From Actinomycetota bacterium (GTDB lineage: Bacteria; Actinomycetota; Actinomycetes; Mycobacteriales; Micromonosporaceae): 64,000 nt of DNA. Location of the stretch: positions 29,538 through 93,537 of the forward strand of contig VAWN01000029.1 of NCBI GenBank assembly GCA_005885555.1, given 5' to 3'. The stretch's first letter is position 1. Every line of letters begins with the position of its first letter. A program made the translations under genes and the position numbers. Positions 8,358 to 36,910 of this stretch are shown piece by piece. Below the pieces are notes generated by a model. It worked only from the letters and a program-made list of their open reading frames with translations. It made no database searches and was not told where the DNA came from.

Positions 8358-9020
8358 GTGCTCGTCCTGTGTTCCTTAACAGGCAGTAGGCAGCAGGACG
8401 ACAGCACGGCGACAGAGACCCTGTTGCTTGTGGGCCAGTGGCACCGGGTACCCCCGGCGGCGTCGACTTTTCGTCACGCCGGTGCGCTGATAGTCCGCTG
8501 TGAGGGCCGGGTACGTACGTGCCAGCTGGCCCTGACCCGGCACGAACCCGGTTGGCTGCTGCTCGGTGAGGGCTGCGCTGACGACGAGCTCGACGCCCTC
8601 GCCCAGGCCGCCCGGTTGGCCGCACCCGGCACCCTGCTGGCCGTGCTGGGCTCCGACGCCGACCTGGTGACTTCCGAGCGCTGGCTGCGCCGGGGCTGCT
8701 CGGCGTTCCTCGCGTCGGCGAGCACCGTCGACCGGGTGCTGGGCATCCTGCGCTTCGTCCGCGACTCCGACGTCGTGGTCGTGGACAAGTGCTTCCAGGA
8801 CGCGTCCTACCTACAACAGGTGGGACCGACCACGGACCTGACCCGGCGCGAGCGCGAGGTCCTGCAGTGGATGCGGGTCGGCCGGCACAACCACGAGATA
8901 GCCGAAGCGCTCGGGGTGTCCGCCAGCACCATCGGGTTCCACGTCCGCAACCTGCTGGAGAAGCTCGGCGCCCGCAACCGGGTCGAGGCCATCAACCGAG
9001 CTGACCTGCTTGGCCTGTAG
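8358..9020 (+). CDS. LuxR-family transcriptional regulator with atypical receiver-like domain
   Basis: About 220 residues. The C-terminal 65 residues are a standard LuxR/FixJ helix-turn-helix (LTRREREVLQWMRVGRHNHEIAEALGVSASTIGFHVRN, quoted here only as its limits, bases 8838-8955). The N-terminal 130 residues look like a receiver fold (a beta strand ending LLAVLGSDADL, then an ASASTVDRVLGILRFV helix), but I cannot find the phospho-accepting Asp or the acidic pocket, so it probably senses something else. The start is uncertain; the GTG at 8358 is the most upstream reasonable one. It converges with the VioB-like gene, overlapping it by 29 bases. Confidence 0.78.
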   Translation: MLVLCSLTGSRQQDDSTATETLLLVGQWHRVPPAASTFRHAGALIVRCEGRVRTCQLALTRHEPGWLLLGEGCADDELDALAQAARLAAPGTLLAVLGSDADLVTSERWLRRGCSAFLASASTVDRVLGILRFVRDSDVVVVDKCFQDASYLQQVGPTTDLTRREREVLQWMRVGRHNHEIAEALGVSASTIGFHVRNLLEKLGARNRVEAINRADLLGL

Positions 9021-10191: not shown

Positions 10192-10226
10192 CTGAGGCCT
10201 CCCTCTCCCGGTTCCGGGCGTAACGG

Positions 10227-10261
10227 ACGCTAGCCGGTGCGGTGCCCGACGTCCTGAGTAA
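10227..10261 (-). promoter_or_regulatory. Shared-motif promoter of the VioB-like gene
   Basis: On the minus strand TTACTCAGGA starts at 10261 and TAGCGT starts at 10232, exactly 29 bases later. The TAG of TAGCGT is the peroxidase stop codon. The predicted start of transcription is about 30 bases before the VioB-like ATG. The upstream GGGTAGTCC box is poorly preserved here (5 of 9 bases at the expected place). Confidence 0.7.
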
Positions 10262-11681
10262 GGCGCGACGTGGATGTGCCTGCCGTGGCCGGTGACATAC
10301 CTACCGGGAGGCAACCGGCTACGGGGTGCGGCGCCAGCAGATCGGCCAACGTGAACCGGTCCGGCTCGCGCGACGGCAGGGTCGGACGCCACGAAGGATC
10401 CACGCAACGGTGCGATCCGGGGTCGTCGTCGACGATACGCACGAGCACCTCGCCCACGATCAGCGCGCCGACCGGTCCGAGCCGCTCACCGTCCTCCCTC
10501 GCCTCGGCCTCCTTGAGGACGTAGTACCACAGTGGTGTCTCGCCGGCCCAGCCGTGGTCGGCCAGCCGGGTTTCCTCGGCAGTGAGCGGTTGCGCGCCGA
10601 CCGCACGGGCGACCGCTTCTCCGGACGGCAACGCGGTTGCGTTGCCACGCAACAGATCCCGTACCGCCAGCGAGCCGTGGTCGGCGTCGTCGAGCGCGCC
10701 GGTGATGTCGGGTGGCAGGTGCACGAGTGATGCCGGCAGCCGGCCGTCGATCGGCCGCGCCCGCTGCGGCGGCGGCCCGCCCGGTACCGGCAGCAGCTCA
10801 CGCCAATCGACCACCCGGTCGGCGGGTACCGGACGGAACCCGAGCAGATCCGGGAACAGCGACAGGCTCGGGCCGCCGGGCCGCAGGCGGTACGTGTCGC
10901 GGATCTGGCTGTGGCCGTACCGGTAGGCCGCGTCGGCGAACTCCAGCGGGATGGCGACCGGCTGGTCGCGCGGCACGTACCGGGGTCCCTCGGCGAGCAG
11001 CCGTTCGGTGCGTTCGCGGCCGATCGTCGCGGGCAGGAAGTCGTGCAGCACCACCCACTGGTAGTGCCAGGTGAGTGCCTGGCGGGCCGCGGCGAACAGC
11101 TGCGCCTCGGGTATCCCGTCGATGCGCAGCCGGTCGACCAGCCGGTTGTGCGCGCGGATCATCGCGACCTGCATCTGCGAAATCAACACGTGCACGTCCT
11201 GGCGCGGATCGCCGACCAGGGCGGTGCCTTCCTGATTGCGCGGCAGGTCGTCGTGCCGGCTGCGGTCGTTACGGCCCAGCAGCAGCTTCGCCGGATCGCG
11301 CCGGCTGTACAGGTACGGCTGGGCGACCGGACCGTCGCCGTACAGGCATTCCAGGTTCAGACGCGCGCTGCGGACGTTGCGCAGCAAGGATTCGTCGTCG
11401 TGGTGGGTCACCGGGGACCGGTCGGCGGTGATGTCGTGCGCCACGTACTGCCCGAACACCGGCCATCCGGCGGCGACCGTGCGCGACTCGCCGCGCCGGC
11501 AGGTGGCGCTGTCACAGGCACCACCGGCGCGACCCAGCGCATGCACCAGTCGGGAGTCGACACCCAGCGGCGGCAGGTGGGGAAACAACCGGGTGTAGCG
11601 TCCGCCGCCCGGTGGTGCGTCCACGGCCCGGCCGGGCGCGAGGCAGTGGTCGCGTGCCGGCCCGCTCGTCGCGCGGTTCAT
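10230..11681 (-). CDS. Animal-type haem peroxidase
   Basis: A 483-residue member of the peroxidase-cyclooxygenase superfamily (An_peroxidase). The distal haem His lies in FGQYVAHDITAD (about residues 77-88), the family motif GDPRQDVHVLI with the following MIRAHNRL is present, and the proximal His is in YRYGHSQIR. The size is close to bacterial members; there is no clear signal peptide, so it is predicted cytoplasmic. It would oxidise small organics or halides with peroxide. It starts one base after the stop of the TreZ-like gene and is fourth in the AGE-STAS operon. The link to glycan genes is unusual. Confidence 0.85.
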   Translation of the reverse strand: MNRATSGPARDHCLAPGRAVDAPPGGGRYTRLFPHLPPLGVDSRLVHALGRAGGACDSATCRRGESRTVAAGWPVFGQYVAHDITADRSPVTHHDDESLLRNVRSARLNLECLYGDGPVAQPYLYSRRDPAKLLLGRNDRSRHDDLPRNQEGTALVGDPRQDVHVLISQMQVAMIRAHNRLVDRLRIDGIPEAQLFAAARQALTWHYQWVVLHDFLPATIGRERTERLLAEGPRYVPRDQPVAIPLEFADAAYRYGHSQIRDTYRLRPGGPSLSLFPDLLGFRPVPADRVVDWRELLPVPGGPPPQRARPIDGRLPASLVHLPPDITGALDDADHGSLAVRDLLRGNATALPSGEAVARAVGAQPLTAEETRLADHGWAGETPLWYYVLKEAEAREDGERLGPVGALIVGEVLVRIVDDDPGSHRCVDPSWRPTLPSREPDRFTLADLLAPHPVAGCLPVGMSPATAGTSTSRLTQDVGHRTG

Positions 11682-11682
11682 G

Positions 11683-12954
11683 TCAGCGGTACCCGATGAC
11701 CGCGGCCGCCTCGCCGGGCAGCTCGACCGCGTCCGGGTTCAGCGTGACCCCGCCGTGGGTGGCCAGCAGTACGTCGCGCGGCCACGGCGGTACCGCGACG
11801 AGGCGCCGCTGTTCGGCGAGGTTCGCCACGACGGCACAGTCGCCGCGCGCGATGGTGAGGAACCCGTCGCCGTGCCAGATCTGTACCCGGTCCAGCCGCG
11901 CGTCGGACAGCTCCGGGTACTCCTTGCGCAGCGCGACCAGGCGGCGGTAGAAGTCCGGCATGCCGCGCGGCGCCGGGGGGCGGCCCGCGGCCCGTGCGGC
12001 GGTCCACTCCTCGCCCATCCGCAGCATCGGGGTGAACGGTCCGGCCAGCAGGAGCATGGCACCGACGCGTTGCATCCGGTACGACGGAGCCGGGTCCGGG
12101 ACCGCGTGCCGGTGGTGCAGGTACACCACCGACTGCCGGCCGACCGCGGCGGGCCGGTCGAATACGCGCGCCCGCCGCGGTTCGGCGGAGCTGGCCCAGG
12201 CGCCGCCTGCGCCGCTCGCGGACCGCAGGACGGTGGTGAGGGTGTGCAGGCCGCCGAAATCCACCCGGCAGTCCGGCTGCGCGCCACCGAGCAGGTCCAG
12301 CAGCGCGGTGGGTGCGCGGTCCCGCAGCCGGTACCCGCCGGGTGCCGGCCGGTTGACCAGACCCGGATCGTCCAGGTCCGACTCGACGATGAGCGACAGC
12401 GGCCGGTTGAGCCGACCCGACAGCGACTCCACCTCGGCCGCCAACTCGCCGAGTACCCGGATGACCCGCTCGTCGGCCAGCGCCGGCAACGCCTTCATCC
12501 GCAGCCCGTCGAGGTGGTACTCGCGCAGCCACATCGTGCCGGCGTCGACGACGAGCCGGCGCAGCTGGCCCGGTGACGGTACCGGCGGGCTTGTCGCGCC
12601 GTCCCACGGGCGCCCGCGGGGCACCCGGTACCGTGTGCCGCCGCGGGCGTCGTGCACCACGCCGAGCAGTACCGCGATGCCGCGGCCGTGGCAGGCGTCG
12701 ACGAAGCGGCGCAGCCCGTCCGGACCGCCCAGCGGTTGGCTCGGGGCGTACCACGACGCGCCACCGTCGCGCCCGGACAGCGGCAGCTCCACCATGTCGA
12801 CGCCGAGCTCGACGAGCTGGTCGAGCCGTCCGGCCGCGGCGTCGAACGTACCCTGCGCGGTGAACGCCGCGACGTCCAGTTCGAACAGGATGCTGCCGGG
12901 CAGTGTGCGCCCGGTCCACCCGGCGTCGGTCCACGCGAATCGCGAAGTACTCAT
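11683..12954 (-). CDS. TreZ-like alpha-amylase-fold protein lacking catalytic acidic residues
   Basis: A 423-residue protein resembling malto-oligosyltrehalose trehalohydrolase (TreZ, GH13) but shorter than the usual near-580 residues; the N-terminal carbohydrate module is missing. The barrel is recognisable: LGVVHDARGG replaces DVVYNHxG, HLDGLRMKALPAL replaces the GLRxDAVHAI nucleophile motif with Lys where Asp is required, and LIVESDLDDPGL keeps the acid/base Glu. The third acidic residue (normally NHDQ) is replaced at HHRHAV. Two of the three catalytic carboxylates are therefore absent and hydrolysis is not expected. It may bind alpha-glucan or regulate GlgX, whose gene lies just upstream in the operon (63-base gap). 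Confidence 0.8.
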   Translation of the reverse strand: MSTSRFAWTDAGWTGRTLPGSILFELDVAAFTAQGTFDAAAGRLDQLVELGVDMVELPLSGRDGGASWYAPSQPLGGPDGLRRFVDACHGRGIAVLLGVVHDARGGTRYRVPRGRPWDGATSPPVPSPGQLRRLVVDAGTMWLREYHLDGLRMKALPALADERVIRVLGELAAEVESLSGRLNRPLSLIVESDLDDPGLVNRPAPGGYRLRDRAPTALLDLLGGAQPDCRVDFGGLHTLTTVLRSASGAGGAWASSAEPRRARVFDRPAAVGRQSVVYLHHRHAVPDPAPSYRMQRVGAMLLLAGPFTPMLRMGEEWTAARAAGRPPAPRGMPDFYRRLVALRKEYPELSDARLDRVQIWHGDGFLTIARGDCAVVANLAEQRRLVAVPPWPRDVLLATHGGVTLNPDAVELPGEAAAVIGYR

Positions 12955-13017
12955 CGGAACTTCTCCGTTGCTCGACAGGCGCGGCGACCGGGCCGGAGCC
13001 CGGCCGCCCGTTGTGGT

Positions 13018-15144
13018 TCAGGTGGTTCTGGAGAACAGGACGACGACGCTGTGCGCGTCCACCCGGTAGGTCGCGCCCTCGACGGGTACCTCGGCGCCGG
13101 GATCGGTGATGTCGTCCGGCGCTTCCAGCGCGGTGTCCACCGACCGGTACCAGCGGCGGCCCTCGATGGACGGCAGCTCGAAGTCGAGGGCGGTGTCCTC
13201 CATGTTCAACATGGCGTGCAGGTCGGTACCCTCGTCCGCGCCGCCGAGGGTGAACGCCAGCACCCCGGTGGTCGGGTCGTCGAAGCCTGGCTCGTGCAGG
13301 TTGCAGCCGTGCCAGGAGATGTCGGCCAGGCCGCGCTCGTTGACCTCGCCGGTGAAGAACCGCGCCCGGTGCAGCTCGGCGTGGCGCCGCCGGTTCCCGA
13401 TGAGCCGGGAGAAGAACCGCAGCAGTCCGGCGTTGGCGCCGACGAGCCGCCAGTCGAACCAGTTGAGTTCGCTGTCGTGGCAGTAGGCGTTGTTGTTGCC
13501 CTGCTGGGTCCGGCGCACCTCGTCGCCCGCGACGATCATCGGTACCCCTTGTGAGAGCATGAGGATCGTGGCGAAGTTGCGGATCTGCCGCTCGCGCAAC
13601 TGTTCCACCGCGGCATCGGCCGTCGGGCCTTCGGCGCCGCAGTTCCAGCTGAGGTTGTTGTCGTTGCCGTCGCGGTTGCCCTCGCCGTTGGCCTCGTTGT
13701 GCTTGCCGTTGTACGACACCAGGTCGTTGAGCGTGAACCCGTCGTGTGCGGTGACGAAGTTGATGCTGTTGATGGGCAGCCGGCCGCCGGCCTGGTAGAT
13801 GTCCGAGCTGCCGGCCAGCCGGCTGGCGAGCACCCCGGCCAGACCGCGGTCGCCGCGCACGAACCGCCGTACGTCGTCGCGGAACCGGTCGTTCCACTGT
13901 GCCCACCGGTACCCCGGCGCGTAGCCGACCTCGTAGAGTCCGGCGGCGTCCCACGGCTCGGAGATGATTTTCGTGTCCGCCAGCTCCTCGGTGAGCTCGA
14001 TGTGCCACGGCACCGGCGGGTACGCCATCGGCGCGCCGTCCGGTGCGCGGGACAGGATCGACCCCTCGTCGAACCGGAAACCGTCGACGTGCATCTCGCG
14101 CACCCAGTACTCCAGGCACTCCACGATGAGCTTCTCGACGATGGGATGGTTGCAGTTGAAGGTGTTCCCGCAACCGGAGTAGTCCATGTAGTACTGGCCG
14201 TCGGAGGGGGACAGGTGGTAGTACACCGGGTTGGCCATGCCCTTGAAGCTGACCGCCGGCCCGAGGTGGTTGCCCTCGCCGGTGTGGTTGAACACCACGT
14301 CGAGGATGACCTCGATACCGGCCGCGTGCAGCGCCTTGACCATGTCGCGGAACTCGCGGACGTGGGTACCCTCGGTGGCGCTGACACAGTAGCCGTCGTG
14401 CGGGGCGAACAGCGCCAGCGGGCTGTAGCCCCAGTAGTTGGTCAGCGTGGTGCCCTCCGGCAGGATCCGGTCGCCCTCCCGCTCGTCGAACATGAACACC
14501 GGCAGCAGTTCCACGGCCGTGACACCCAACGACTTCAGGTACGGGATCTTCTCCACCACGCCGCGGTAGGTGCCCGGGTTGTATACGCCGGAGGAGGGCG
14601 ACCGGGTGAACCCGCCGACGTGCATCTCGTAGATGACCGTCTCGTGCATCGGCCGGTTGAGCGGGCGGTCGCCCTCCCAGTCGTAGTCGTCGACGTCGAT
14701 GACGGTGGCGCGCATCGAGGTGGCCAGGTTGTCTCCGGGTACGCAGGCGGCACCCCGGTCCCACAGCGCCTTCGTCACCCCGCGCGCATAGGGATCGATG
14801 AGTACCTTGTCCGGGTCGAACCGGTACCCGTTGTCGTGCGGGTCGTGTGGCCCGGCGACCCGGTAGGCGTAGTGCGCGCCGGGGCGCAGCCCGCGCAGGT
14901 ACACGTGCCAGAAGTGGAAGCTGCGGTTCGCGTTCGGGTCCAGCTCGACCACCTGTACCGGTTGCGGGCTGTCGTGCTCGGCGAAGACGAGCAACGTCAC
15001 CGCGGTCGCGCCCTCGGTGTACACCGAGAAGTTGACACCCTCGGCATCGGGTTCCGCGCCGAGCGGATGGGCGCGTCCCGCCTCGACCTGGTAAGGACCG
15101 GTGACCGTAGCGGACGGCCGGGTGGCTTCGACGGTGTCGGTCAT
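13018..15144 (-). CDS. glgX: Glycogen debranching enzyme GlgX (isoamylase type)
   Basis: A 708-residue GH13 enzyme that hydrolyses alpha-1,6 branches of glycogen after phosphorylase trimming, or of storage glucans (TreX type). An N-terminal CBM48-like domain (about residues 18-130) leads into the barrel with ILDVVFNHTGEG, the nucleophile in VDGFRFDEGS, the acid Glu in IISEPWDAAG and the third Asp in NFVTAHDGFT; all catalytic residues are present. Length is normal. The ATG at 15144 overlaps the stop of the AGE-STAS gene by 4 bases (ATGA), so translation is coupled. Confidence 0.93.
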   Translation of the reverse strand: MTDTVEATRPSATVTGPYQVEAGRAHPLGAEPDAEGVNFSVYTEGATAVTLLVFAEHDSPQPVQVVELDPNANRSFHFWHVYLRGLRPGAHYAYRVAGPHDPHDNGYRFDPDKVLIDPYARGVTKALWDRGAACVPGDNLATSMRATVIDVDDYDWEGDRPLNRPMHETVIYEMHVGGFTRSPSSGVYNPGTYRGVVEKIPYLKSLGVTAVELLPVFMFDEREGDRILPEGTTLTNYWGYSPLALFAPHDGYCVSATEGTHVREFRDMVKALHAAGIEVILDVVFNHTGEGNHLGPAVSFKGMANPVYYHLSPSDGQYYMDYSGCGNTFNCNHPIVEKLIVECLEYWVREMHVDGFRFDEGSILSRAPDGAPMAYPPVPWHIELTEELADTKIISEPWDAAGLYEVGYAPGYRWAQWNDRFRDDVRRFVRGDRGLAGVLASRLAGSSDIYQAGGRLPINSINFVTAHDGFTLNDLVSYNGKHNEANGEGNRDGNDNNLSWNCGAEGPTADAAVEQLRERQIRNFATILMLSQGVPMIVAGDEVRRTQQGNNNAYCHDSELNWFDWRLVGANAGLLRFFSRLIGNRRRHAELHRARFFTGEVNERGLADISWHGCNLHEPGFDDPTTGVLAFTLGGADEGTDLHAMLNMEDTALDFELPSIEGRRWYRSVDTALEAPDDITDPGAEVPVEGATYRVDAHSVVVLFSRTT

Positions 15145-17405
15145 CGCCGCACCGCCGCACCGTTGTCCGGACCGACCGCGACGACGGCGGCCGGTGACAG
15201 CTGCGACGCGTCGGCGACCACCTCCGCCTGCTCGAGGAAGCCGACACCCTGTAGCACCCGCTTCACCGCGTCGGAGGGGCCTACGACGAACATGTCGGTG
15301 TTGACGTCGATGCCCTGGCAGGCGAAGGCGAGCGTGCGGGCGCTCGTGCGGGAGATCGACTCGATGTCCTCGACCCGCAGCACGAGCCGGGTCGGCCGCG
15401 CCGCGACGATCCGGGACAGGTACCCCTTGAGCAACACCTCGGCCTCGTCGTCGATGACGCCGTCGAGGAAGAGTTCGGCCACCCCGTCGTTGAGGTTGAG
15501 GCGCATGCCGTAGGTGAGGCTTGCCGGTACGACCCGCACCCGCACCCGCAGCTCGTCGCTGCCGGCCTGGTGCGGCCGGCGGGTACTGCCCGTCCACGGC
15601 GGCTGGTGCCCCGGCGCGTGCCCCCCGGCGACGCCGTTGGTCGTCGTGGGAAGCTTGACCGTCATCGCGGCGGAATCGAAGTCGGTCCACCGCTCGTCGT
15701 TGATCCAGACCGCCTGCAGCCGCACGCTTCCGGACGGCAGGATGTCCGGCTGTACCCGCAGGATGTTGTCCGGGAAGGCACCCGGCTGCGGCTTGAAGAA
15801 CAGGTCCAGTGGCTGCTTGCGGACCAGCAGGTTGGTGTACACCGCGGCGAGGTAGCACAGCTCGAACGAGTGGTACCCGGACATGGAGTGGCTGCCCTTG
15901 AGCCGTTCGGTGCCCAGCAGGTACGGCAGACCGTTGGCGAGCACGTTGAAGTACACCGCGCCGGAGTCGTGGTCGGGGAACCAGGCGTTGTAGAACGCGG
16001 CCGACTCGCGGGCCAGCCGCAGGTACTCCTCGTCGCCCAGCGAGCCGGTGAGGATGAGGTATGCGAGGATGGCCTGCTCCTGTTGCCACCAGGCCTTGCG
16101 GTCGTGCCACACCAGCCGGTGGAACTTCTCGCCCTCGGCGTGCACCCGTTCCACCACGTCGTACCAGCCACCGCGCTGCCGGTCCATGCCCACCGACGGC
16201 ATCACGTCGGCGATCTTCCGGGCCAGCGCTACGTACTGGTCGCTCGGCCGCAGGTGGTGTATCCGCATCAGGTTCCAGGCGATCTTCAGGTTGTGCCCGA
16301 CCACCGCCCGGTTCTGCTGCCAGCCCCACGTGGTGTCCGGCCGCCAGTCCTCGTGGAACCGTTCCTGCACAAAGGGACTGCGCTCGTAGTCCGGGAACCG
16401 TTCGGCGATGAGGTCGGCCACCGACCCGAGGAAGTCCGCGTACCGTTCGTCGCCGGTCGCCAGCCACAGGTTGATGAGGTACGCCGGCGCGTGGTCGCCG
16501 ATCGAGTTCCAGTTCTTGCGGGCCCGGTCCACCGTCAGCGAGGGCGAGCGCGGGTCGAAGTCGACGGGGTCGATGTGCGAGAAGTACCCACCCTGGTCGC
16601 GGTCGAGGTAGAAGCGGTCGAACAGTTCCACGGTCATCTGCGCGTCACGCAGGATGCGCGGGTCGCCGGTGATCCGGTACGTCTGCACGGGACCCGCGAG
16701 GGCGTAGATCTGTTCGTACGCCGGGATCGCGTCGTAGTCGTCGCCGAACTGCGAGGCGAGGATCTTCCGTTCCCGGCCGTCCCGGACGTCGATCGCGTGG
16801 TACCAGTAGACGATGCCCTCCTGCTCGTCGACCGCGCGCATGTGCTCGCGCAGGTACTCGGTACCCCGCTCGGCGGCCTCCAGGTACCGGTCCTCACCGG
16901 TCAGCAGGTACGCGGTGGCGAAGCCGTAGATCAGGCGCGAGATGGTGTCGGTCTCCTGGCGGGTACCGGGTACCTTGCGCCCCTCGACGGTGAGGTGCGT
17001 CCGGTACCCGCGGTAGTCGACGTTCCCGTCCGGGAACTGCGCATTGAAGTAGAACTCCGCCAGCGAGCCGATCTGCTTGGTCCACCAGTCCGCTTCCTCG
17101 AAGCGGTACTCGTGCTGCCCCTGACCGAGCAGGACGAGATGCTTCGCCTCGAACTTCGGCGGCTCGCACTCGGGGTAGTAGACACCGTACGCGTAGAGGT
17201 ACCGGTCGGCGACCAGCAGCTCGTCCAGGCTGCCGGCCGGTACCTGGAACGGCTCGTCGAGGTTGCGCACGATCTCCGCATACGTGGTGGTGGTCAGCCG
17301 GACACGGAACTGCCTGCCGTCGGTGGTGCGCAGGCCGAACGAGCGGGTGTGCGGATCGAAGTCGACCACGTAGCCGGCTATCGTGTCAGAGAAGGTGAAG
17401 TCCAT
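15141..17405 (-). CDS. AGE-family sugar epimerase fused to a C-terminal STAS domain
   Basis: 754 residues, first gene of the operon. Residues about 60-540 are an (alpha/alpha)6 barrel of the N-acylglucosamine 2-epimerase family: FGDDYDAIPAYEQIY, NSIGDHAPAYLINLWL, GWQQNRAVVGHNLKIAWNL and HDRKAWWQQEQAILAYL. The usual Glu two residues after the GHxx motif is Lys here, so activity may differ from known epimerases. A low-complexity link (about 600-625) leads to a STAS domain (about 640-735) whose LRVEDIESISRTSARTLAF segment keeps a Ser at the phospho-site position. STAS domains normally serve anti-sigma-factor or sulfate-transporter control, so the pairing implies stress-linked protein contacts. 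The ribosome site is weak. Confidence 0.85.
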   Translation of the reverse strand: MDFTFSDTIAGYVVDFDPHTRSFGLRTTDGRQFRVRLTTTTYAEIVRNLDEPFQVPAGSLDELLVADRYLYAYGVYYPECEPPKFEAKHLVLLGQGQHEYRFEEADWWTKQIGSLAEFYFNAQFPDGNVDYRGYRTHLTVEGRKVPGTRQETDTISRLIYGFATAYLLTGEDRYLEAAERGTEYLREHMRAVDEQEGIVYWYHAIDVRDGRERKILASQFGDDYDAIPAYEQIYALAGPVQTYRITGDPRILRDAQMTVELFDRFYLDRDQGGYFSHIDPVDFDPRSPSLTVDRARKNWNSIGDHAPAYLINLWLATGDERYADFLGSVADLIAERFPDYERSPFVQERFHEDWRPDTTWGWQQNRAVVGHNLKIAWNLMRIHHLRPSDQYVALARKIADVMPSVGMDRQRGGWYDVVERVHAEGEKFHRLVWHDRKAWWQQEQAILAYLILTGSLGDEEYLRLARESAAFYNAWFPDHDSGAVYFNVLANGLPYLLGTERLKGSHSMSGYHSFELCYLAAVYTNLLVRKQPLDLFFKPQPGAFPDNILRVQPDILPSGSVRLQAVWINDERWTDFDSAAMTVKLPTTTNGVAGGHAPGHQPPWTGSTRRPHQAGSDELRVRVRVVPASLTYGMRLNLNDGVAELFLDGVIDDEAEVLLKGYLSRIVAARPTRLVLRVEDIESISRTSARTLAFACQGIDVNTDMFVVGPSDAVKRVLQGVGFLEQAEVVADASQLSPAAVVAVGPDNGAAVRR

Positions 17406-17789
17406 GGCGCCTGGTCCATTCTGTCGACGCGCCTCGCGCGATCGGGTCTACGGCTGCCCTGAAAGGACGAAGGTCACGCTAGGGTCGGTGCGGTGCGCAG
17501 TCCTGAGTAGACGTGGGCCGGCGACGGCGGTGCGGCCGGATGGACTACCCAGGACGGTGCCCGGGCCCGCGGATACCGTGTGGCGACGCTACTCAGGCAC
17601 GGGAGCGCAGGTCGGCGGGGCACCGCAGGCGGGGAGCTGTGGAAAGCAACAGGGCTGAACCTGGTCGAGCTGCCAGGGTAACGCTACGTCCTTCACACAG
17701 GTGCCCTGAGTCGACTTGCGCGGTCTCCGATGTGACAATCCAGAAGGTGGTCGAGGAATGGAAGTCACAACCGCAGGGAGTGACGCAAC
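17406..17789. other. Divergent regulatory region, 384 bases
   Basis: Between the AGE-STAS operon and the LAL regulator. It contains the complete three-part shared promoter for the operon (17476-17550). On the plus strand at 17589 there is another CTACTCAGG box that lacks a TAGCGT at the expected distance, so it is possibly an autoregulatory site of the LAL gene. I see no gene inside. Confidence 0.6.
17476..17550 (-). promoter_or_regulatory. Shared-motif promoter of the AGE-STAS/glgX operon (full form)
   Basis: Minus strand: GGGTAGTCC starts at 17550, CTACTCAGGA at 17510 (40 bases on) and TAGCGT at 17481 (29 bases on). If TAGCGT is the -10 box, CTACTCARGA covers about -41 to -32, a typical activator site touching the -35 region, and GGGTAGTCC lies near -81 to -73. 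The leader is about 65 bases. Confidence 0.75.
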
Positions 17790-20483: not shown

Positions 20484-20497
20484 GCCGCGCGGTCGCC

Positions 20498-21712
20498 TCA
20501 GGCGACCCGGGTTCCCTTGCCGATGACGGTGATGCCGCACGGGCTCGTGGTGTAGCTTTTCGCGTCGGCGTCCGGATCCTGGCCGATCTGCGCGCCGCCG
20601 TCGACCACGACGTCCTTGTCGAGGATCGCGCGCCGGACGATCGCACCGGTGCCGATGCGCACGCCGGGCAGCACGACGCAACCGTCCACAATGGCTCCCT
20701 TGCCGACCACCACGTCCGGACCGAGGACCGAGTTGCGCACCCGGCCGCCGGAGATGACCGAGCCCGGACCGATGATGCAGTCCTCCACATTGCCGCCGGC
20801 GACGAACTTCGCCGGCGGCAACGACGGCAGCCGGGTGCGGATCGGCCAGGCGTGGTTGAACAGGTTGAACCGCGGTTGCCCGGACAGCAGGTCCAGGTGC
20901 AGGTCGTAGTAGGCGTCGAGGGTACCGACGTCACGCCAGTACCCGTGGTCGCGAACGGTTGCGCCCCGGACGGTGTTGTCCGAGAAGTTGTAGACGTGGG
21001 CGCGGCCGGCCTCGACCAGCATCGGCACGATGTCACCGCCCATGTCGTGTGCCGACCCGGGATTGTCGGCGTCCCAGCGCAACGCGTCGAGCAGCACCGA
21101 GGTGGTGAACACGTAGTTGCCCATCGACACGAACGAGGACTGCGGATCGCCCGGGATACCCGGCGGCTGTGGTGGCTTCTCCACGAACCGCAGGATCCGG
21201 CCCGACGCATCGGCCTCGATACAACCGAATGCGCTCGCGGCGGCGCGCGGTACCCGGATGCCGGCGACCGTCACGCCCGCGCCACTGTCGAGGTGCTGCG
21301 CGATCATCTGCATCGGGTCCATCCGGTACACGTGGTCGGCGCCGAACACCGCGACCACGTCCGCGGCGGCACCGTAGACCAGGTCGAGCGACTGGAAGAT
21401 GGCGTCCGCGCTGCCGTTGTACCAGTGCGGCCCGAGCCGCTGCTGTGCCGGTACCGCGATGACGAACTGGCCGAGCATGCTGGACAGCCGCCATGAGGTC
21501 GCGATGTGCCGGTCCAGCGAATGCGACTTGTACTGGGTCAGCACGTAGATGCGGTGGATCCCGGCATTCACCAGGTTCGACAGCACGAAGTCGACCAGCC
21601 GGTAGTTGCCGCCGCACGGTACCGCCGGTTTGGCCCGGTCGGCGGTGAGCGGCCACAGCCGCTTTCCCTGGCCGCCGGCCAGCACGATGCCGAGCACCTG
21701 TGGTGCGTACAC
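20498..21712 (-). CDS. glgC: Glucose-1-phosphate adenylyltransferase (ADP-glucose pyrophosphorylase)
   Basis: 404 residues, the normal length. It makes ADP-glucose for glycogen and related alpha-glucan synthesis. The nucleotidyltransferase domain shows [14 protein letters not shown] (residues 10-23), the FVEKP sugar-phosphate motif, [17 protein letters not shown] and DVGTLDAYY; the C-terminal third is a left-handed beta-helix ([12 protein letters not shown]). GTG 21712 lies where transcription from the shared-motif promoter should begin (about 7 bases after the TAGCGT box), so the message is probably leaderless. No glgA or glgB is in the window. It converges with the LAL gene 14 bases away. 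Confidence 0.93.
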
Positions 21713-21718
21713 GACGCC

Positions 21719-21753
21719 ACGCTAACCGCGTTCCGGCGCCGGATCCTGAGTAA
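21719..21753 (-). promoter_or_regulatory. Shared-motif promoter of glgC (leaderless)
   Basis: Minus strand: TTACTCAGGA starts at 21753 and TAGCGT at 21724, 29 bases apart. Only about 7 bases separate TAGCGT from the GTG start codon at 21712. The GGGTAGTCC box is not found 40 bases upstream on this strand, but the one belonging to the divergent GMC promoter lies nearby. Confidence 0.7.
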
Positions 21754-21771
21754 GTCCCGTGCCGGTCGTGT

Positions 21772-21846
21772 GGGTAGTCCGTCGCGCAGCCGCGCGCCGG
21801 CCCGGACCCGTCTACTCAAGACCGGGCACCCGGTCTGACCTAGCGT
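21772..21846 (+). promoter_or_regulatory. Shared-motif promoter of the GMC oxidoreductase operon (full form)
   Basis: Plus strand: GGGTAGTCC at 21772, CTACTCAAGA at 21812 (40 bases on) and TAGCGT at 21841 (29 bases on). The bases after the -10, TAGCGTGACC, are identical to those in the AGE-STAS promoter. The leader to GTG 21883 is about 30 bases. Confidence 0.75.
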
Positions 21847-21882
21847 GACCCACGTCAACGCTACCGATGGGGAGTGGACACG

Positions 21883-23391
21883 GTGAAATACGATCACATC
21901 ATCATCGGCGCCGGGTCGTCCGGCGCGGTTCTCGCCACCCGCCTTTCCGAAGACCCGAGCTGCTCGGTCCTGCTCCTCGAGGCGGGGCCGTACTGGCCGG
22001 ATCCGGCGCAGCTGCCGGACGATCTCGCCAACGCGGCGACAGTGTCGGTGCAGGAGCACGACTGGGGGTACACGGCCGAGGCGGTACCGGGACGCACGAT
22101 GGAGTACGCCCGCGGTAAGACCGCCGGTGGGTGCTCCGCGGTCAACGGGGCCATCGCGCTGCGCGGCATCCCCGACGACTTCGACGGATGGGTCAAGCTC
22201 GGCAACGACGAATGGTCGTGGGAGAAGGTGCTGCCCTACTTCGTGAAGATCGAGGACGACCAGGACGCCGAGGGCCCGTACCACGGCAAGGGCGGGCCGA
22301 CGCCGATCGTGCGCTGGCGGCACGACGAGCTGGTACCGCTGCAGAAGGCGTACCTCGACGCGTGTCTGGCCCAGGGGTTCAGCTACGTCGCCGACCACAA
22401 CGACCCGCAGAGCTCCGGGGTCGGGCCGATCCCGATGAACCGGCGCGGAAACCTGCGCGTCTCGACCGCGGTCGCGTACCTGTCCCAGGCCCGCCAGCGG
22501 CTGAACCTCACCGTCCGGCCGCAGTGCCTGGTGAACCGGGTGGTGTTCGACGGTTCCCGCGCGATCGGCGTGGAGGTGACGATCGGCACCGAGACGCAGA
22601 CCGTGTACGGCGAACACATCACCCTGTCCGCCGGCGCGGTGAACACGCCCACCATCCTGCTGCGGTCGGGCATCGGGCCGAAGGCCGACCTGGAAGGGTT
22701 GGGCGTCAAGGTGGTGCTGAACCAGCCGAACGTCGGCCAGCACCTGATCGAGCACCAGCAGATCACGGTCGGCATCGTGCCCAGGGAGGGCGTGACCCAG
22801 CTGACCGACCCGGACGTGCAGATCATCGCGCGGTACACCAACCCCGGCACGGACCAGTTCAACAACATGCAGATGTACTTCGTCAGCCGGTACGTGCCGA
22901 TCACCCACCGGCCGATCAGCGTCATGAGCGTGCTGCAGAAGCCGCAGTGCCGCGGCCGCGTGTCGATCACGTCGACGGATCCGTTGCGGCAGCCGGACAT
23001 CTTCCTGAACTCGTACGGCGAGGTGGCCGACCAGAAGATCGCCCTTGACGGCGTACGGCTGTGCTGGGCCATCGCCAACTCCGAGCCGATCCAGGCGCTG
23101 TCCGCGGGGCTCGCCGACACCTTGACCGAGCGGCAGCTCGACGACGACGACGCGCTGCTGAGCTACCTGCGCCAGCACTCCGCGACGCTGTGGCACCCGG
23201 TGGGCACCTGCCGGATGGGTACCGCCGACGACGACACGGCAGTGGTGGACCAGCGGTTCCGGGTGTTGGGCGTGGACAACCTCAGCATCGTCGACGCGTC
23301 GGTGATGCCCGACCACGTCAGCGGCAACCCGAACCTGACCTGCTACGTGCTCGGCGAGCGCGCGGCCGACTGGATGAAGCAAGGAGCGTAG
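21883..23391 (+). CDS. GMC-family FAD oxidoreductase
   Basis: About 502 residues of the glucose-methanol-choline family. The FAD-binding start HIIIGAGSSGAVLATRL lies at residues 5-21, LLLEAG follows, the GMC signature region GKTAGGCSAVNGAIALRG is at about 85-102, and the active-site His is in TLWHPVGTCRMG with Asn in SGNPNLT. It would oxidise an alcohol or sugar hydroxyl. GTG 21883 fits the GGGGAG ribosome site better than the in-frame GTG at 21874. It is first of five closely packed genes (SnoaL, DJ-1/PfpI, SnoaL, LtrA) under the full shared promoter. Confidence 0.9.
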   Translation: MKYDHIIIGAGSSGAVLATRLSEDPSCSVLLLEAGPYWPDPAQLPDDLANAATVSVQEHDWGYTAEAVPGRTMEYARGKTAGGCSAVNGAIALRGIPDDFDGWVKLGNDEWSWEKVLPYFVKIEDDQDAEGPYHGKGGPTPIVRWRHDELVPLQKAYLDACLAQGFSYVADHNDPQSSGVGPIPMNRRGNLRVSTAVAYLSQARQRLNLTVRPQCLVNRVVFDGSRAIGVEVTIGTETQTVYGEHITLSAGAVNTPTILLRSGIGPKADLEGLGVKVVLNQPNVGQHLIEHQQITVGIVPREGVTQLTDPDVQIIARYTNPGTDQFNNMQMYFVSRYVPITHRPISVMSVLQKPQCRGRVSITSTDPLRQPDIFLNSYGEVADQKIALDGVRLCWAIANSEPIQALSAGLADTLTERQLDDDDALLSYLRQHSATLWHPVGTCRMGTADDDTAVVDQRFRVLGVDNLSIVDASVMPDHVSGNPNLTCYVLGERAADWMKQGA

Positions 23392-23395
23392 CGCC

Positions 23396-23812
23396 ATGCC
23401 CGGCAGAGGGACCGCACTGGTGCACCTGTACTACGAGAAGTTCCTGACCGCCCCCGGCGACCTGGACACGGCCGACGAGATCTTCGCGCCGGAGGTGGTG
23501 TTCCACAACCCGATCTCACCCGACGGAATCCACGGCATCGACGAGTATAAGAAGTTCGCGATGCGGTGGTACCAAGGCTTTCCGGACCGCGTCTTCACCG
23601 TCAACGACACGGTCGAGGAGGCGGACAAGGTGGCCGCGTCGTTCACCATCACCGGCACGCACAGCGGCGAGTTCATGGGTGCCGCACCGACCGAGCATCC
23701 GATCGTGGTCAAGGGCATGAACCTGTTCCGCATCGAGCGCGGCCGGATCGCCGACGTCAAGGCGTTCTTCGACCCGGACGCGCTGTACCGGCCGCTCGGC
23801 CTGGCCGGGTGA
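23396..23812 (+). CDS. SnoaL-like ester cyclase family protein
   Basis: A 138-residue alpha+beta barrel of the SnoaL/NTF2-like superfamily, with the familiar pattern VVFHNPISPDGIHGIDEYKKF, DTVEEADKVAASFTITGTHSGEF, then IVVKGMNLFRIERGRI. The fold binds small hydrophobic or sugar-like ligands and performs cyclisation, isomerisation or hydration; the substrate cannot be read. It starts 4 bases after the GMC gene and overlaps the DJ-1-like gene by 4 bases if the GTG at 23809 is used. Confidence 0.85.
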   Translation: MPGRGTALVHLYYEKFLTAPGDLDTADEIFAPEVVFHNPISPDGIHGIDEYKKFAMRWYQGFPDRVFTVNDTVEEADKVAASFTITGTHSGEFMGAAPTEHPIVVKGMNLFRIERGRIADVKAFFDPDALYRPLGLAG

Positions 23813-24456
23813 GCGCGGTGACGATGGAGAACGGAAAGATCGGGGTACTGATCGAGGACCACTTCGACCAGACCGAGTACCGCCGGTTCAACGAGTTCTT
23901 CCCCGACCACGGATACACCGTGGAGTACCTGTCGCACCTGTGGGGCCAGCCGGAGCTCACCTTCGGTGGCAACCCGGACAACGGTGTCGTCGAGGAGCAC
24001 GTGACCGTGCGGACCGAGGTCGCCGAGGTCGATCCCGCGGACTACCGGGGAATCATCTGCATCGGCGCCTACGCGATGGACCGGTTGCGTTACCAGGCAA
24101 CGGTTTCCGGCAAGGGCCAGCGGAACACGGCACCCGCGGTGGAGTTCCTGCGCCGCGCCATGGACACCGACGGGCTGCCCGTCGGCACCATCTGCCACTC
24201 GCTGTGGCTGCTGTGCGCGGACCCCGATCTGTTGCGCGGCCGCCGGGTGACCTGTGCCCACAACATCGTGTGCGACGTGGAGAACGCCGGCGGCGAAGTG
24301 GTGTACGGCGACGACGGCACCGCGGACCTCGTGGTCGACGGAAACCTCGTCTCCGCAAGGCATCCCGAGGTGACCGACCGCTTCGTCGCCGAGTTCGTCA
24401 AGGCGATCGAGAACAGCCCGCGCCGGCCCGGTCCGGCACCGCGAACCGAGGAGTGA
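23809..24456 (+). CDS. DJ-1/PfpI family protein
   Basis: About 215 residues. The nucleophile elbow GTICHSLWLL carries the conserved Cys followed by His, and the N-terminal LIEDHFDQTEYRRFNEFF is typical of the PfpI subgroup with a catalytic acidic residue near the start. Family members act as glyoxalases, deglycases, amidases or chaperone-like stress proteins. Start chosen as GTG 23809, which overlaps the SnoaL stop (GTGA); ATG 23824 is the alternative. A role in removing reactive carbonyls made by the upstream GMC oxidase is possible but inferred. Confidence 0.85.
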   Translation: MSAVTMENGKIGVLIEDHFDQTEYRRFNEFFPDHGYTVEYLSHLWGQPELTFGGNPDNGVVEEHVTVRTEVAEVDPADYRGIICIGAYAMDRLRYQATVSGKGQRNTAPAVEFLRRAMDTDGLPVGTICHSLWLLCADPDLLRGRRVTCAHNIVCDVENAGGEVVYGDDGTADLVVDGNLVSARHPEVTDRFVAEFVKAIENSPRRPGPAPRTEE

Positions 24457-24458
24457 CC

Positions 24459-24848
24459 ATGTCCCGAGCCGACCAGATCCGCGCCGCGGTCGTGGCGTAC
24501 GTCGACAGCTTCAACCGACGCGACCGGGACAGCTTCCTCGGGCTGTTCGCCGACGGCGTGGTGCAGATCGACCCGGTGGGTTCGCCGCCGAACGTGGGCC
24601 GCGACGCGCTGGCCGCGTTCTGGGACAACCTCTACGCACAAACCGAGGCCGTCGACTTCCGGATCGTCGACCTTTTCGTCACCGGTGACGAGGCGGCTCT
24701 GCTGTTCCATATCACCCAGCTGACCGAAGGCGGCGCCACCGAGGTCGACGGGATCGACGTGTTCCGCGTCGACGAGGCCGGGCGGATCAGCATGGTCCAC
24801 GGGTACTCCGATGCCGACCACGTCAAGCAACGCGGTGGTGGGCGGTGA
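24459..24848 (+). CDS. SnoaL/NTF2-like protein
   Basis: A 129-residue second NTF2-fold protein in the operon: RAAVVAYVDSFNRRDRDSFLGLFADGVVQIDPVG at the start and GIDVFRVDEAGRISMVHGY at the end, the pattern of nuclear-transport-factor-2/steroid-isomerase-like proteins. GAGGAG precedes the ATG by a few bases. Its stop overlaps the LtrA start GTG by 4 bases. It is only distantly similar to the first SnoaL protein, so it is not a recent duplicate. Confidence 0.82.
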   Translation: MSRADQIRAAVVAYVDSFNRRDRDSFLGLFADGVVQIDPVGSPPNVGRDALAAFWDNLYAQTEAVDFRIVDLFVTGDEAALLFHITQLTEGGATEVDGIDVFRVDEAGRISMVHGYSDADHVKQRGGGR

Positions 24849-26080
24849 GCCCGACAAACGTCGTCGCGCTCGAACCGTCAACTCGCCGCCGGCGTCCGCA
24901 ACTGCGCAACGCCGGCGGCGAGGTCACCGAAAGGCACGCGTCGGCGCTGGAACTGTTCTTCGACCTCGTGTTCGTGGTCGCCGTCGCGGAACTGGCCGAG
25001 GCGTTGCTGCACGACCCGACCCGGTTGGGCCTGCTGCACTACGTCGTGCTGTTCGTACCGATCTGGTGGGCGTGGGTGGGGTACACCTTCTTCGCCGACC
25101 GGTTCGACAACGACGACCTCATCCATCGCGCGATCATGCTCGCCGCGATGCTCGCGGTCAGCTCGGTCGCCGAGGCGGTACCCGAGGCGTTCACGAGTCC
25201 CGCCGGGTCGATCCGGTTCGCCGCGAGCTACGTCGCGGTACGGGTGCTGCTGCTGCTCCAGTACGCGCGGGCGCACCGGTGCGTGCCGGTGGCCCGGCCG
25301 CTGACCGGCCGGTACCTCACCGGGTTCGGCATCGGCGCGGCGCTGTGGCTGGTCTCCGTCTTCGTGCCGGGGCCGGCGCGGTACGCGTGCTGGGCCGCCG
25401 GAGTCCTCGTGGAGCTGGCCACGCCACTGGCCTCCGCGTCGGCCATCAGACGGGTACCGTTCCACACCTCGCACATTCCGGAGCGCTTCGGCCTGTTCGT
25501 GCTCATCGTGCTCGGCGAGTCGGTGACCCTCGACGCGATCGGCATCGCCTCCAGCCGCCTGGATCTCATGGCGAGCCTGGTCGTCGTCGCCGGCTTCTTC
25601 ATCGCGGCGGGCCTGTGGTGGCTGTACTTCGACTGTGTCGACTCGTCGCCGATGCGGCGCTGGCGGCGCACCGGCCAGGTGTACGTGTACGGGCATCTGG
25701 TGGTCTTCGCGGCCATCACCGCCTCCGGGGCCGGTGTGCTGCTGTCCAGCCGGGCGGCGGCCGGGTACCAGCGGCAGGAGGGCGCGCTGGAGACCGCGGT
25801 GCCTGACCCGGCGCTGCTGGTCGACGAGGCGCGTTGGGCGCTGTGCGGCGGGATCGCGGCGTTCCTGTTCGCGATCGGGACGATCCACCTCGTGAACACC
25901 GCTCCCCGCGGCGACATCCGGGCCTGGTCGCGCATCGGACTCGCCGCGGCCGCCGTGCTGCTCGCCGTCTTCGGCGCGGGCCTGCCCCCGCTGGCCGTCG
26001 AGGCCGCCATCGTCGCCGGCCTCGCCGCCGAGATCGTGCTGGAGGTCCGCCTCATCTGTGAGCTGAACGTCGCCGGCTGA
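24845..26080 (+). CDS. Low temperature requirement protein A (LtrA) family membrane protein
   Basis: 411 residues with about ten hydrophobic helices. The family hallmark ELFFDLVFVVAVAEL is near residues 36-50, with FGLFVLIVLGESV later, both diagnostic of LtrA. The molecular function of the family is unknown; the name comes from a Listeria cold-growth mutant. It is the last gene of the GMC operon and is followed by a strong terminator. Its presence suggests a membrane or export step for the operon, which is inference. Confidence 0.88.
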   Translation: MSPTNVVALEPSTRRRRPQLRNAGGEVTERHASALELFFDLVFVVAVAELAEALLHDPTRLGLLHYVVLFVPIWWAWVGYTFFADRFDNDDLIHRAIMLAAMLAVSSVAEAVPEAFTSPAGSIRFAASYVAVRVLLLLQYARAHRCVPVARPLTGRYLTGFGIGAALWLVSVFVPGPARYACWAAGVLVELATPLASASAIRRVPFHTSHIPERFGLFVLIVLGESVTLDAIGIASSRLDLMASLVVVAGFFIAAGLWWLYFDCVDSSPMRRWRRTGQVYVYGHLVVFAAITASGAGVLLSSRAAAGYQRQEGALETAVPDPALLVDEARWALCGGIAAFLFAIGTIHLVNTAPRGDIRAWSRIGLAAAAVLLAVFGAGLPPLAVEAAIVAGLAAEIVLEVRLICELNVAG

Positions 26081-26095
26081 CCCGTGCACAGCAAT

Positions 26096-26119
26096 GGCCG
26101 CCGTCCGTGGACGGCGGCC
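26096..26119. terminator. Bidirectional hairpin terminator
   Basis: A perfect 11-base stem, GGCCGCCGTCC pairing with GGACGGCGGCC around GT, sits between the convergent LtrA gene (stop 26080) and the royal-jelly/yellow-like gene (stop 26140). Confidence 0.8.
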
Positions 26120-26139
26120 AACGCTTGCCAGGTGATTCC

Positions 26140-27297
26140 TCAGTGGTCGATACGCACGCGGTAGAGCACGTACGGCTTGACCCTCAGATCCTTGTCCTCG
26201 TGGAACCGCGGCAGCCGGTTGAGCTGGTTCACCGTGAAGTACATGAACCCGTCGGCGCCCATCGACAGCGTGTCGATCCAGATGATGCGCGAACCCTGGA
26301 CGACCGTCTGGATGCGGCCGTCGGGCAGGCGCCGGATGAGCGCGTTGCGCTCGATGTCGCCGCCGTACACCCGGTCCCGCCGGTCGGTCTCCAGGCCGTC
26401 GCTCATCCCCTTGCGGCCGAGGTTGCGCACCGTCGCCGCCACCGCGGAATCGGGGGTACCCCGGTCGGCGAGCGCGTCGACGCTGACGCTGTACAGCGTC
26501 CGGCTGGACAGTGCGCAGTAGAACAGCGTCCGGCCGTCGGGGCTGATCGCGATGCCGTCCACGCCCTCCGTCAGGCTGCTCGGCGGCGCGTCCGGTGGCC
26601 GGACGAGCCACGGCTGGCCCTCGATGATCGGCGTGAAGTTGGGCTCCGCCTTGACCGTCGGGTGGTCATTGAGGCGGCGCCACGACTGCCCGGTGGCCAG
26701 ATCGACCACGATGATCGCGTTCGGTCCGTTGGCCGAGGAGTCGGTGATGAACGCCATCCCCGCCCGGCCGCGGCGCAGATCGAACCGCACATCGTTGAGC
26801 TCGGTCGTGGACAGCGCCACGTCCGGCGGGAACGGGATCGACTTGACCACCTGGTTGGTGCGCAGGTCGATGCCGACCAGCTTGGCACCACCCGGAATCA
26901 TCGGGCCGAAGTTGATCCGGCCGGTGTCCAGCGCCCAGAGCCGGTCGGCCTGGTCGACGACCACACTCTGCACCGAGATGAAGTGTGTCGCGGCATGCGC
27001 GGTGTCCAGCTGGTTGATCGCGGCGTTCGGGTACGGCACCTCGCGTCCGCCCCGGATCTCCGTCACCGTTGCCGGTACCTGGTCGATCCAGCGCGGGAAG
27101 TTGCTGAAGATGCGGCCGTGCCGGGACACCGTGACCCCGGTCGGCATCGGCCCGAAGTACCGGTGCACCACCTGGACTCCGGCGGTACCCGCGGTGCGTT
27201 CGGTGGCGCCTGCCGGCGCCGCGCCCGCGGTGCTGAGCGCGACAGAGGCGGTCACCGCCGCGACGGCGACCGCCAGCGCGCGCAGTCCTACTCTCAT
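26140..27297 (-). CDS. Secreted major royal jelly/yellow-family beta-propeller protein
   Basis: 385 residues with a Sec signal peptide: MRVGLRALAVAVAAVTAS then a cleavable AGAAPAGA region near residue 30. The mature protein matches the MRJP/yellow family: FGPMPTGVTVSRHGRIFSNFPRW, QSVVVDQADRLWALDTG, LNDVRFDLRRGRAGMAFITDS, and ending TVNQLNRLPRFHE. These six-bladed propellers bind small ligands such as amines; bacterial members have no fixed role. An AGGGAGGT-like site (GGGAGGT) precedes the ATG at 27297. It carries the full shared promoter and is divergent from the SMP-30-like gene. Confidence 0.88.
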   Translation of the reverse strand: MRVGLRALAVAVAAVTASVALSTAGAAPAGATERTAGTAGVQVVHRYFGPMPTGVTVSRHGRIFSNFPRWIDQVPATVTEIRGGREVPYPNAAINQLDTAHAATHFISVQSVVVDQADRLWALDTGRINFGPMIPGGAKLVGIDLRTNQVVKSIPFPPDVALSTTELNDVRFDLRRGRAGMAFITDSSANGPNAIIVVDLATGQSWRRLNDHPTVKAEPNFTPIIEGQPWLVRPPDAPPSSLTEGVDGIAISPDGRTLFYCALSSRTLYSVSVDALADRGTPDSAVAATVRNLGRKGMSDGLETDRRDRVYGGDIERNALIRRLPDGRIQTVVQGSRIIWIDTLSMGADGFMYFTVNQLNRLPRFHEDKDLRVKPYVLYRVRIDH

Positions 27298-27348
27298 TCG
27301 TTACCTCCCAGTCGAAAGCTTCCGCCGCCGACCGAGCCGCCGGAACGC

Positions 27349-27423
27349 ACACTACCCACATTCCTATCGATGGTCTTGAGTAGCCGCCCTACCCGCCGGA
27401 TGCCGGTCCCAGGTGGACTACCC
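27349..27423 (-). promoter_or_regulatory. Shared-motif promoter of the royal-jelly/yellow-like gene (full form)
   Basis: Minus strand: GGGTAGTCC starts at 27423, CTACTCAAGA at 27383 (40 bases on) and TAGTGT at 27354 (29 bases on). The spacings are identical to those of the AGE-STAS and GMC promoters while the intervening bases differ, which argues for selection on the boxes. Confidence 0.75.
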
Positions 27424-27503
27424 ACGCGCCGCGCCCCGCGTCGGTAACGCGGGGCGCGGTACTGGGCGGTGCCGCCGCCGGTACTCGCCCGCAGCCGCCG
27501 CCG

Positions 27504-27538
27504 CTACTCAGGAGCCGTCCCGGTACCGGTGTTAGCTT
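27504..27538 (+). promoter_or_regulatory. Shared-motif promoter of the SMP-30-like gene
   Basis: Plus strand: CTACTCAGGA at 27504 and TAGCTT at 27533, 29 bases apart. Forty bases upstream lies GGGCGGTGC, a 6 of 9 match to GGGTAGTCC. The leader to GTG 27597 is about 50 bases. Confidence 0.65.
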
Positions 27539-33885: not shown

Positions 33886-33973
33886 GGGATAGCTACCAAG
33901 TGGACGGGGACACCGGCACGCTCATCGGCGCCGTGGACACCGGCCTGCGCTGAACCGGCCGGACAACTCACCC

Positions 33974-36815: not shown

Positions 36816-36910
36816 CGGTGTATCCCTTCCCGGTGAGTTGATCCAGGCCGGTTCACCCCGGTGGGGTGACCCGGTGGTGCCGGCGCGGCCAGACGATGTG
36901 GACACGGAAA

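Follow-up and report, generated by a model that had tools for sequence, protein, structure and literature searches.

A 64,000-nucleotide stretch of contig VAWN01000029.1 from an Actinomycetota bacterium (assembly GCA_005885555.1; hereafter the window) carries a cluster of alpha-glucan and redox genes preceded by six copies of a promoter element, YTACTCARGA-N19-TAGNNT, and its sequence indicates a real regulon private to this cluster. The regulon is most likely run by LAL1, a large ATP-binding LuxR-type (LAL) regulator encoded in the cluster, and we give a probability of roughly two in three (0.66) to a cluster-specific activation circuit in which LAL1 is both reader of the element and activator. 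LAL regulators are abundant in actinobacteria and, to our knowledge, their target sequences are mostly unknown. One footprinting study of an LAL regulator could give no consensus (PMC9628970). Here, comparative sequence alone gives a precise site, a promoter geometry and two named candidate proteins, and the element would place the cluster's alpha-glucan and redox genes under common control.

Six copies of the element are confined to one gene cluster

A first-pass annotation had placed six copies of the element in the window, and all six are present at the positions and on the strands it gave (Table 1). Six occurrences compare with an expectation of 0.00 from 100 dinucleotide shuffles, and the whole genome (6,699,801 bases in 197 contigs) contains no exact copy beyond these six, while a reversed control pattern has no exact occurrence. 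On the shuffle expectation and the lack of other exact genomic sites, we rejected a chance origin. Allowing up to two mismatches added four matches in the genome, one of them inside the cluster at 17545 (+), compared with two for the control; a genome-wide regulon was rejected on these counts. The 17545 site faces LAL1 and is a possible autoregulated promoter of LAL1 itself.

The shorter heptamer YTACYCA occurs 13 times on the two strands of the window, with 11 of the 13 falling within four promoter regions (binomial P of about 6e-19, for regions picked after the sites had been seen). Three of these four regions lie between divergent genes: those for an AGE-STAS fusion (N-acylglucosamine 2-epimerase fold plus STAS) and LAL1, for GlgC and a GMC oxidoreductase, and for a major royal jelly protein family (MRJP) member and an SMP-30-like protein. 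The VioB-like site overlaps the 3' end of the peroxidase open reading frame (ORF) and would therefore be an internal promoter. The spacing from box to TAGNNT, 29 bases start to start, is fixed at all six sites; the invariance asserted by the annotation holds for this distance and does not extend to an upstream box. Its proposal of a co-regulated promoter set is backed by the sequence.

The element precedes orthologous genes in a second genus

Among the best 80 of 583 loci, Actinoplanes subtropicus has the closest AGE-STAS relative (71% identity). This relative lies in a syntenic cluster with VioB-like, GlgX, LAL1, GlgC, GMC (79%), two SnoaL, LtrA and 220-amino-acid (aa) LuxR-type (52.8%) genes. 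The LAL1 orthologue is 49.6% identical over 894 aa and is divergent from AGE-STAS as in the window. The peroxidase, MRJP and SMP-30-like genes have no match in the A. subtropicus cluster.

In the 11.3-Mb A. subtropicus genome, CTACTCANGA-N19-TANNNT with at most one mismatch gave five matches (control, three). All three exact matches and one of the two one-mismatch matches lie in the cluster, standing before AGE-STAS, GMC, an MFS gene and a DJ-1/PfpI gene located upstream of the VioB-like gene. Across the orthologous AGE, GMC and GlgC promoters, identity is 9/10, 9/10 and 10/10 in the box, 8/19, 7/19 and 11/19 in the spacer, and 5/6, 4/6 and 3/6 in the -10 hexamer. Boxes thus stand before three orthologous genes (AGE-STAS, GMC and, with a poor -10, GlgC) and two others, as in a conserved regulon.

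Among the same best 80 loci, AGE-STAS relatives at 52 to 71% identity (best segment) come from cyanobacteria, Chloroflexi, Planctomycetota and others. Being so widespread, AGE-STAS alone was rejected as a marker of the system.

The box overlaps a putative, poor -35

With TAGNNT as the -10 and a 17-base spacer, the -35 coincides with the inner bases of the box; the -35 hexamers (AGGACT, AAGACC and similar) match TTGACA poorly, and YTACTCA runs from about -41 to -35. At glgC, six nucleotides (nt) separate the -10 from the GTG start codon, so that the transcript is probably leaderless; the distance from the final A of TTACTCA to this GTG is 35 nt. In two further cases, the MFS site of A. subtropicus and a separate locus in other genomes (described below), the start codon, read by eye, follows the -10 by 7 nt. 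Because start codons follow by 6 to 7 nt at these three places, the annotation's reading of TAGNNT as a -10 is supported. A box overlapping the -35, with a -10 at fixed distance, is by sequence the layout of a class II LuxR-type promoter.

Inverted half-sites lie upstream of the box

The annotation had also reported, at three sites, a partner box starting 40 bases farther upstream. The genome has three exact copies of GGGTAGTCC-N31-CTACTCA, and the window contains all of them; at up to three mismatches there are 17 matches in all against 20 for the control, so inexact matches carry no weight by themselves. The SMP-30-like gene has one of them, TGGGCGGTGC, in register. Across 394 genomes of the class, TGRGTAG-N34-CTACTCANGA has its only exact occurrences, three in number, in this window; with one mismatch it occurs 12 times in 10 other genomes against 15 for the control. 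We therefore rejected a fixed 40-base partner as a general feature: it holds at three of the six window sites and fails as a rule, relatives carrying theirs about 10, 18 to 20 or 40 to 42 bases before the box.

Inverted half-sites as such are backed by the sequence. In the window, those of AGE, GMC and MRJP start 41 bases ahead of the core, with another at 12 at MRJP; in A. subtropicus they start at 40 (AGE), 42 and 20 (PfpI), 19 (MFS) and 18 (GMC), at the separate locus at 10, and in another family at 10 to 11 (by eye). Of 11 promoters, 8 have a TGRGTAG-like half-site (6/7) no more than 60 bases upstream, where shuffling predicts about 1.0; one of the eight has only the divergent gene's own box in this role. 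The offsets fall near one, two and four turns of 10.5 bases (Rayleigh p of 0.0003 to 0.013, depending on the offsets counted within 60 bases; p of 0.0014 with farther matches at 51, 65, 85 and 96 added, the last three out of phase). Because the sites are few and partly related, this helical phasing is exploratory.

LAL1 is the leading candidate for the reader

LAL1 has the domains of an LAL protein, with AAA_16 at residues 28 to 156 and GerE at 838 to 888 of 897 aa. It has no TPR_MalT match, and the NCBIfam MalT model covers its helix-turn-helix (HTH) alone, at 22.1 bits, which does not make it a MalT. Its best model is AbsR2 (NCBIfam NF050132), at 243.6 bits against a cut-off of 850 bits; by this comparison LAL1 is a relative of AbsR2 and not a member of that family. 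The annotation had named four LAL proteins as possible readers. A LuxR/LAL reader survives as the best guess, and the 40 kb read around the A. subtropicus cluster contain an orthologue of just one of the four, LAL1 (17790). LAL2, LAL3 and LAL4 were put aside for want of one there, LAL2 matching only part of another ORF. In both clusters LAL1 is divergent from AGE-STAS with sites between them, and the only other regulator common to the two is the 220-aa LuxR-type protein, which the annotation had not named.

Loci with related enzymes served as controls. Among 300 genomes of the family, own genome included, AGE-STAS relatives (E<=1e-100) occur in 25 and close GMC relatives (E<=1e-150) in 6. At six AGE and/or GMC loci (L180, L181, L182, L183 plus L184, L185 and L186), where 12.9 to 20 kb was read per stretch, we found neither the element nor a homologue of LAL1 or of the 220-aa protein at E<=1e-10; one of them has another GerE protein, of 213 aa. 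L183 and L184 belong to one genome, and L186 is a paralogous locus of the own genome. Eighteen AGE loci read with 1.5-kb flanks (L156 to L173), three of them from the same genomes as the previous set, also lack the element. At the paralogous locus (C128:29458-31209), which has no element, the second AGE gene of this genome (60%) stands next to a GlgX-like gene, with two distant GMC-like ones (31 to 34%) also present.

The exact pattern occurs in 9 of the 300 family genomes, own included (control, two matches). Six of the other eight share a separate locus, in which TGAGTA-N5-TACTCAGGA and, downstream, TAGGTT stand immediately in front of a gene whose product is probably secreted (judged by eye; the one tested has no Pfam match above cut-off). 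In all five such loci with 10-kb flanks (L015 to L018 and L021), an LAL gene lies tail to tail with this gene; its product has 858 to 1023 aa, counted from the first start codon. The sixth genome's locus is on a 10-kb contig, outside the flank set. At each of the five loci LAL1 scores best among the window regulators, and it aligns with three of the five LAL proteins over about 890 aa at 29 to 30% identity, which no other window regulator does. AbsR2 is the best NCBIfam model for the L016 LAL (89.9 bits) and for both LAL1 proteins (243.6 and 270.5 bits), again below the cut-off of 850, and LAL2 to LAL4 have no match to this model. The recognition helix reads SVRTVDNHL in both LAL1 proteins and SVRTVENHL at the separate locus; LAL2, LAL3, LAL4 and the 220-aa protein differ at its Asn.

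In the proposed circuit, active LAL1 would bind TACTCA half-sites. Bound at YTACTCARGA over a poor -35, with a 17-base spacer to the TAGNNT -10, it would recruit RNA polymerase with the housekeeping sigma factor, as MalT does, and the inverted TGRGTAG upstream, on the same helix face, would take another subunit. The regulated units would be AGE-STAS/GlgX/TreZ-like/peroxidase, VioB-like, GlgC, GMC/SnoaL/SnoaL/LtrA, MRJP and SMP-30-like, and possibly LAL1; an alpha-glucan product would fit the genes as the signal. More tentatively, and as a generalization we hold to be doubtful, AbsR2-like LAL proteins as a subfamily may recognize TACTCA and activate through a promoter-proximal half-site and an inverted one placed one, two or four whole turns upstream, their oligomers tolerating changes in spacing if the helix face is kept, unlike the arrays of MalT or the compact palindrome of the Actinoplanes MalT.

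Alternatives to activation by LAL1

The other regulator common to the two clusters could itself be the reader. The 220-aa protein is a stand-alone GerE protein in which no Pfam receiver domain was found, and LAL1 would then act elsewhere or above it. TACTCA resembles TACYYMT, the heptamer of NarL-type sites, and in A. subtropicus the gene for this protein is directly upstream of the site-bearing MFS gene, adding to the conservation noted above. Arguing the other way, its start in the window has no YTACYCA nearby, whereas the region upstream of LAL1 has sites in both clusters, and the family genomes that carry the element beside an LAL gene have no 220-aa homologue at E<=1e-40 (in a genome sample matching that of the element search in size and type). 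We consider this assignment unlikely. An alternative sigma factor, for which the two boxes would be the -35 and -10, fits their conservation and fixed 29-base spacing; the inner box, though, yields a 17-base housekeeping spacer, the box recurs inverted upstream where a sigma site has no use for it, and no sigma-factor gene was found among the cluster proteins scanned (part of the ORFs), leaving this very improbable. That the sites are operators through which LAL1 or another protein represses by covering the -35 seems improbable as well: the overlap itself would suit it, and an LAL repressor, SCO6993, is reported for Streptomyces coelicolor (PMC9628970), but the -35 hexamers are poor, as in activator-dependent promoters, and the closest architectural precedent is an activator.

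Several observations weigh against activation by LAL1. The 220-aa protein accompanies the cluster equally closely, its homologues at E<=1e-40 being confined to 2 of the 300 family genomes, the own genome and the one taken to be that of A. subtropicus, both of which have the cluster; the covariation of LAL1 with the element is judged from the fetched loci. Within the HTH, the separate-locus LAL is as near LAL3 (48 to 49%) as LAL1 (47 to 50%), and the five separate-locus genomes amount to about one evolutionary observation because they look orthologous. About 10 kb around the two remaining exact sites of the family genomes (L019 and L020, genus g32) showed no GerE gene. The VioB and GlgC promoters of the window have no half-site of at least 6/7 within 60 bases, and A. 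subtropicus GlgC retains TTACTCAGGA with a poor -10 (TTGGCT). A looser pattern, YTACTCANGA-N19-TANNNT, occurs in 17 of 397 genomes of the order; outside the own genome it gives 16 matches against 20 for the control, so that most single matches elsewhere are chance. Nine such loci (L145 to L153) have no LAL-sized GerE protein nearby, three having smaller GerE-like proteins, which indicates that the element is not everywhere tied to an adjacent LAL gene.

Three of these loci, from another family of the order (L146, L147 and L148), have GAGTAG-N4-CTACTC-like palindromes (by eye) in the same place and a TAGNNT -10, with no LAL gene found within about 10 kb. Four genomes of a single genus in another family carry the L147/L148 type.

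Relation to known LAL systems

The annotation had called the element apparently undescribed. For the sequence this stands: a limited letter search of open-access papers found no earlier description, its letter matches including a DasR site table, primers and a paper whose main text lacks the letters, and the passages of PMC6784220 consulted contain no LAL site. It does not stand for the architecture. Judged from the sequences, the kind and geometry are those known from MalT, while half-site sequence, regulator subfamily and spacing differ. NarL-type sites share recognition of a TACYYM-like half-site by a GerE domain and differ in having a two-component regulator and another arrangement.

The closest parallel is in Actinoplanes sp. 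SE50/110, apparently of the same bacterial family. There, the LuxR-family MalT (ACSP50_3915) is the activator of most genes in MRLGR, a region of 51 genes (PMC7567727); the site TCATCC-N5-GGATGA overlaps the -35 at 17 starts, with its 3' end 34.4 ± 1.0 nt from the start, and region and motif are partly common to other Micromonosporaceae. As there, a LuxR-family regulator is encoded in the region and hexamer half-sites overlie the -35 at many promoters; the 34.4-nt distance compares with 35 nt before the glgC GTG here, if that transcript is leaderless, and the N5 palindrome layout recurs at the separate locus. The half-sites differ (TCATCC/GGATGA there, TGAGTA/TACTCA here), as do the genes and the regulator, MalT-like there and AbsR2-like here. 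The site of SE50/110 is a compact N5 palindrome, whereas here half-sites are mostly about two or four turns apart, with N5 at the separate locus only. That regulon rests on expression, and the present element on DNA sequence.

Escherichia coli MalT is likewise an LAL activator with a box over the -35 of alpha-glucan genes, but its GGGGAKGAGG decamers stand in direct repeat (as cited in PMC7567727 and PMC6099782) and are unrelated in sequence, and LAL1 lacks a TPR_MalT match. In Rhodococcus jostii TMP1, TpdR is an actinobacterial LAL activator with one repeat over the -35; unlike the element, its proposed site consists of 15-nt direct repeats, TnnAAnnGCGGAnTC, in one promoter region (PMC6099782).

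Features of the cluster

Genes, sites and half-sites are collected in Table 1. Against the mycofactocin dehydrogenase MftG model, the GMC oxidoreductase reaches 370.1 bits, a little short of the cut-off (387.45). The TreZ-like protein is matched in A. subtropicus by about 100 C-terminal residues only, just after GlgX.

Table 1. Genes and putative regulatory sites of the cluster, in window coordinates
Feature	Coordinates	Strand	Remarks
LuxR-type regulator, 220 aa	8358..9020	+	GerE domain; rival candidate reader
VioB-like ferritin-fold protein	8992..10191	-	Pfam Ferritin-like; start codon by eye; scan on longer ORF 8992-10407
Animal-type haem peroxidase homologue	10230..11681	-	
TreZ-like GH13 protein	11683..12954	-	far below TreZ cut-off; match begins at profile position 77
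GlgX glycogen debranching enzyme	13018..15144	-	above cut-off
AGE-STAS fusion	15141..17405	-	
LAL1	17790..20483	+	proposed reader and activator
GlgC-type nucleotidyl transferase	20498..21712	-	
GMC oxidoreductase	21874..23391	+	
SnoaL-like protein	23396..23812	+	
SnoaL-like protein	23940..24848	+	domain in C-terminal half
LtrA family protein	24845..26080	+	
MRJP	26140..27297	-	
SMP-30/gluconolactonase-like protein	27597..28565	+	
VioB-like promoter element	10227..10261	-	TTACTCAGGA-N19-TAGCGT
AGE-STAS operon promoter element	17476..17510	-	CTACTCAGGA-N19-TAGCGT; A. subtropicus counterpart
glgC promoter element	21719..21753	-	TTACTCAGGA-N19-TAGCGT
GMC-SnoaL-SnoaL-LtrA promoter element	21812..21846	+	CTACTCAAGA-N19-TAGCGT; A. 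subtropicus counterpart
Royal-jelly-like gene promoter element	27349..27383	-	CTACTCAAGA-N19-TAGTGT
SMP-30-like gene promoter element	27504..27538	+	CTACTCAGGA-N19-TAGCTT
Site facing LAL1	17545..17579	+	CTACCCAGGA-N19-TACCGT; AGE upstream half-site on opposite strand
Extra box, AGE-STAS/LAL1 intergenic	17589..17598	+	CTACTCAGGC; no -10 in register
Upstream inverted half-site, AGE-STAS promoter	17542..17551	-	TGGGTAGTCC; starts 41 before core
Upstream inverted half-site, GMC promoter	21771..21780	+	TGGGTAGTCC
Upstream inverted half-site, royal-jelly-like promoter	27415..27424	-	TGGGTAGTCC

The SE50/110 MalT pattern TCATCC-N5-GGATGA, at up to two mismatches, occurs in the window only at 33968, 36853 and 37162 and at none of the six promoters, which sets the element apart from the MalT box; the count of three is not above chance (mean 1.44), and a looser pattern also matches elsewhere in the window. 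For LAL4 (37974-40814), alone among the LAL proteins, MalT is the top NCBIfam model, and its target may be another palindrome. Around LAL4 lie TCACCC-N5-GGRTGA-like palindromes close to the Actinoplanes MalT site (33968-33984, 36853-36869, 37162-37178 and 40961-40977), which possibly mark a second LAL regulon.

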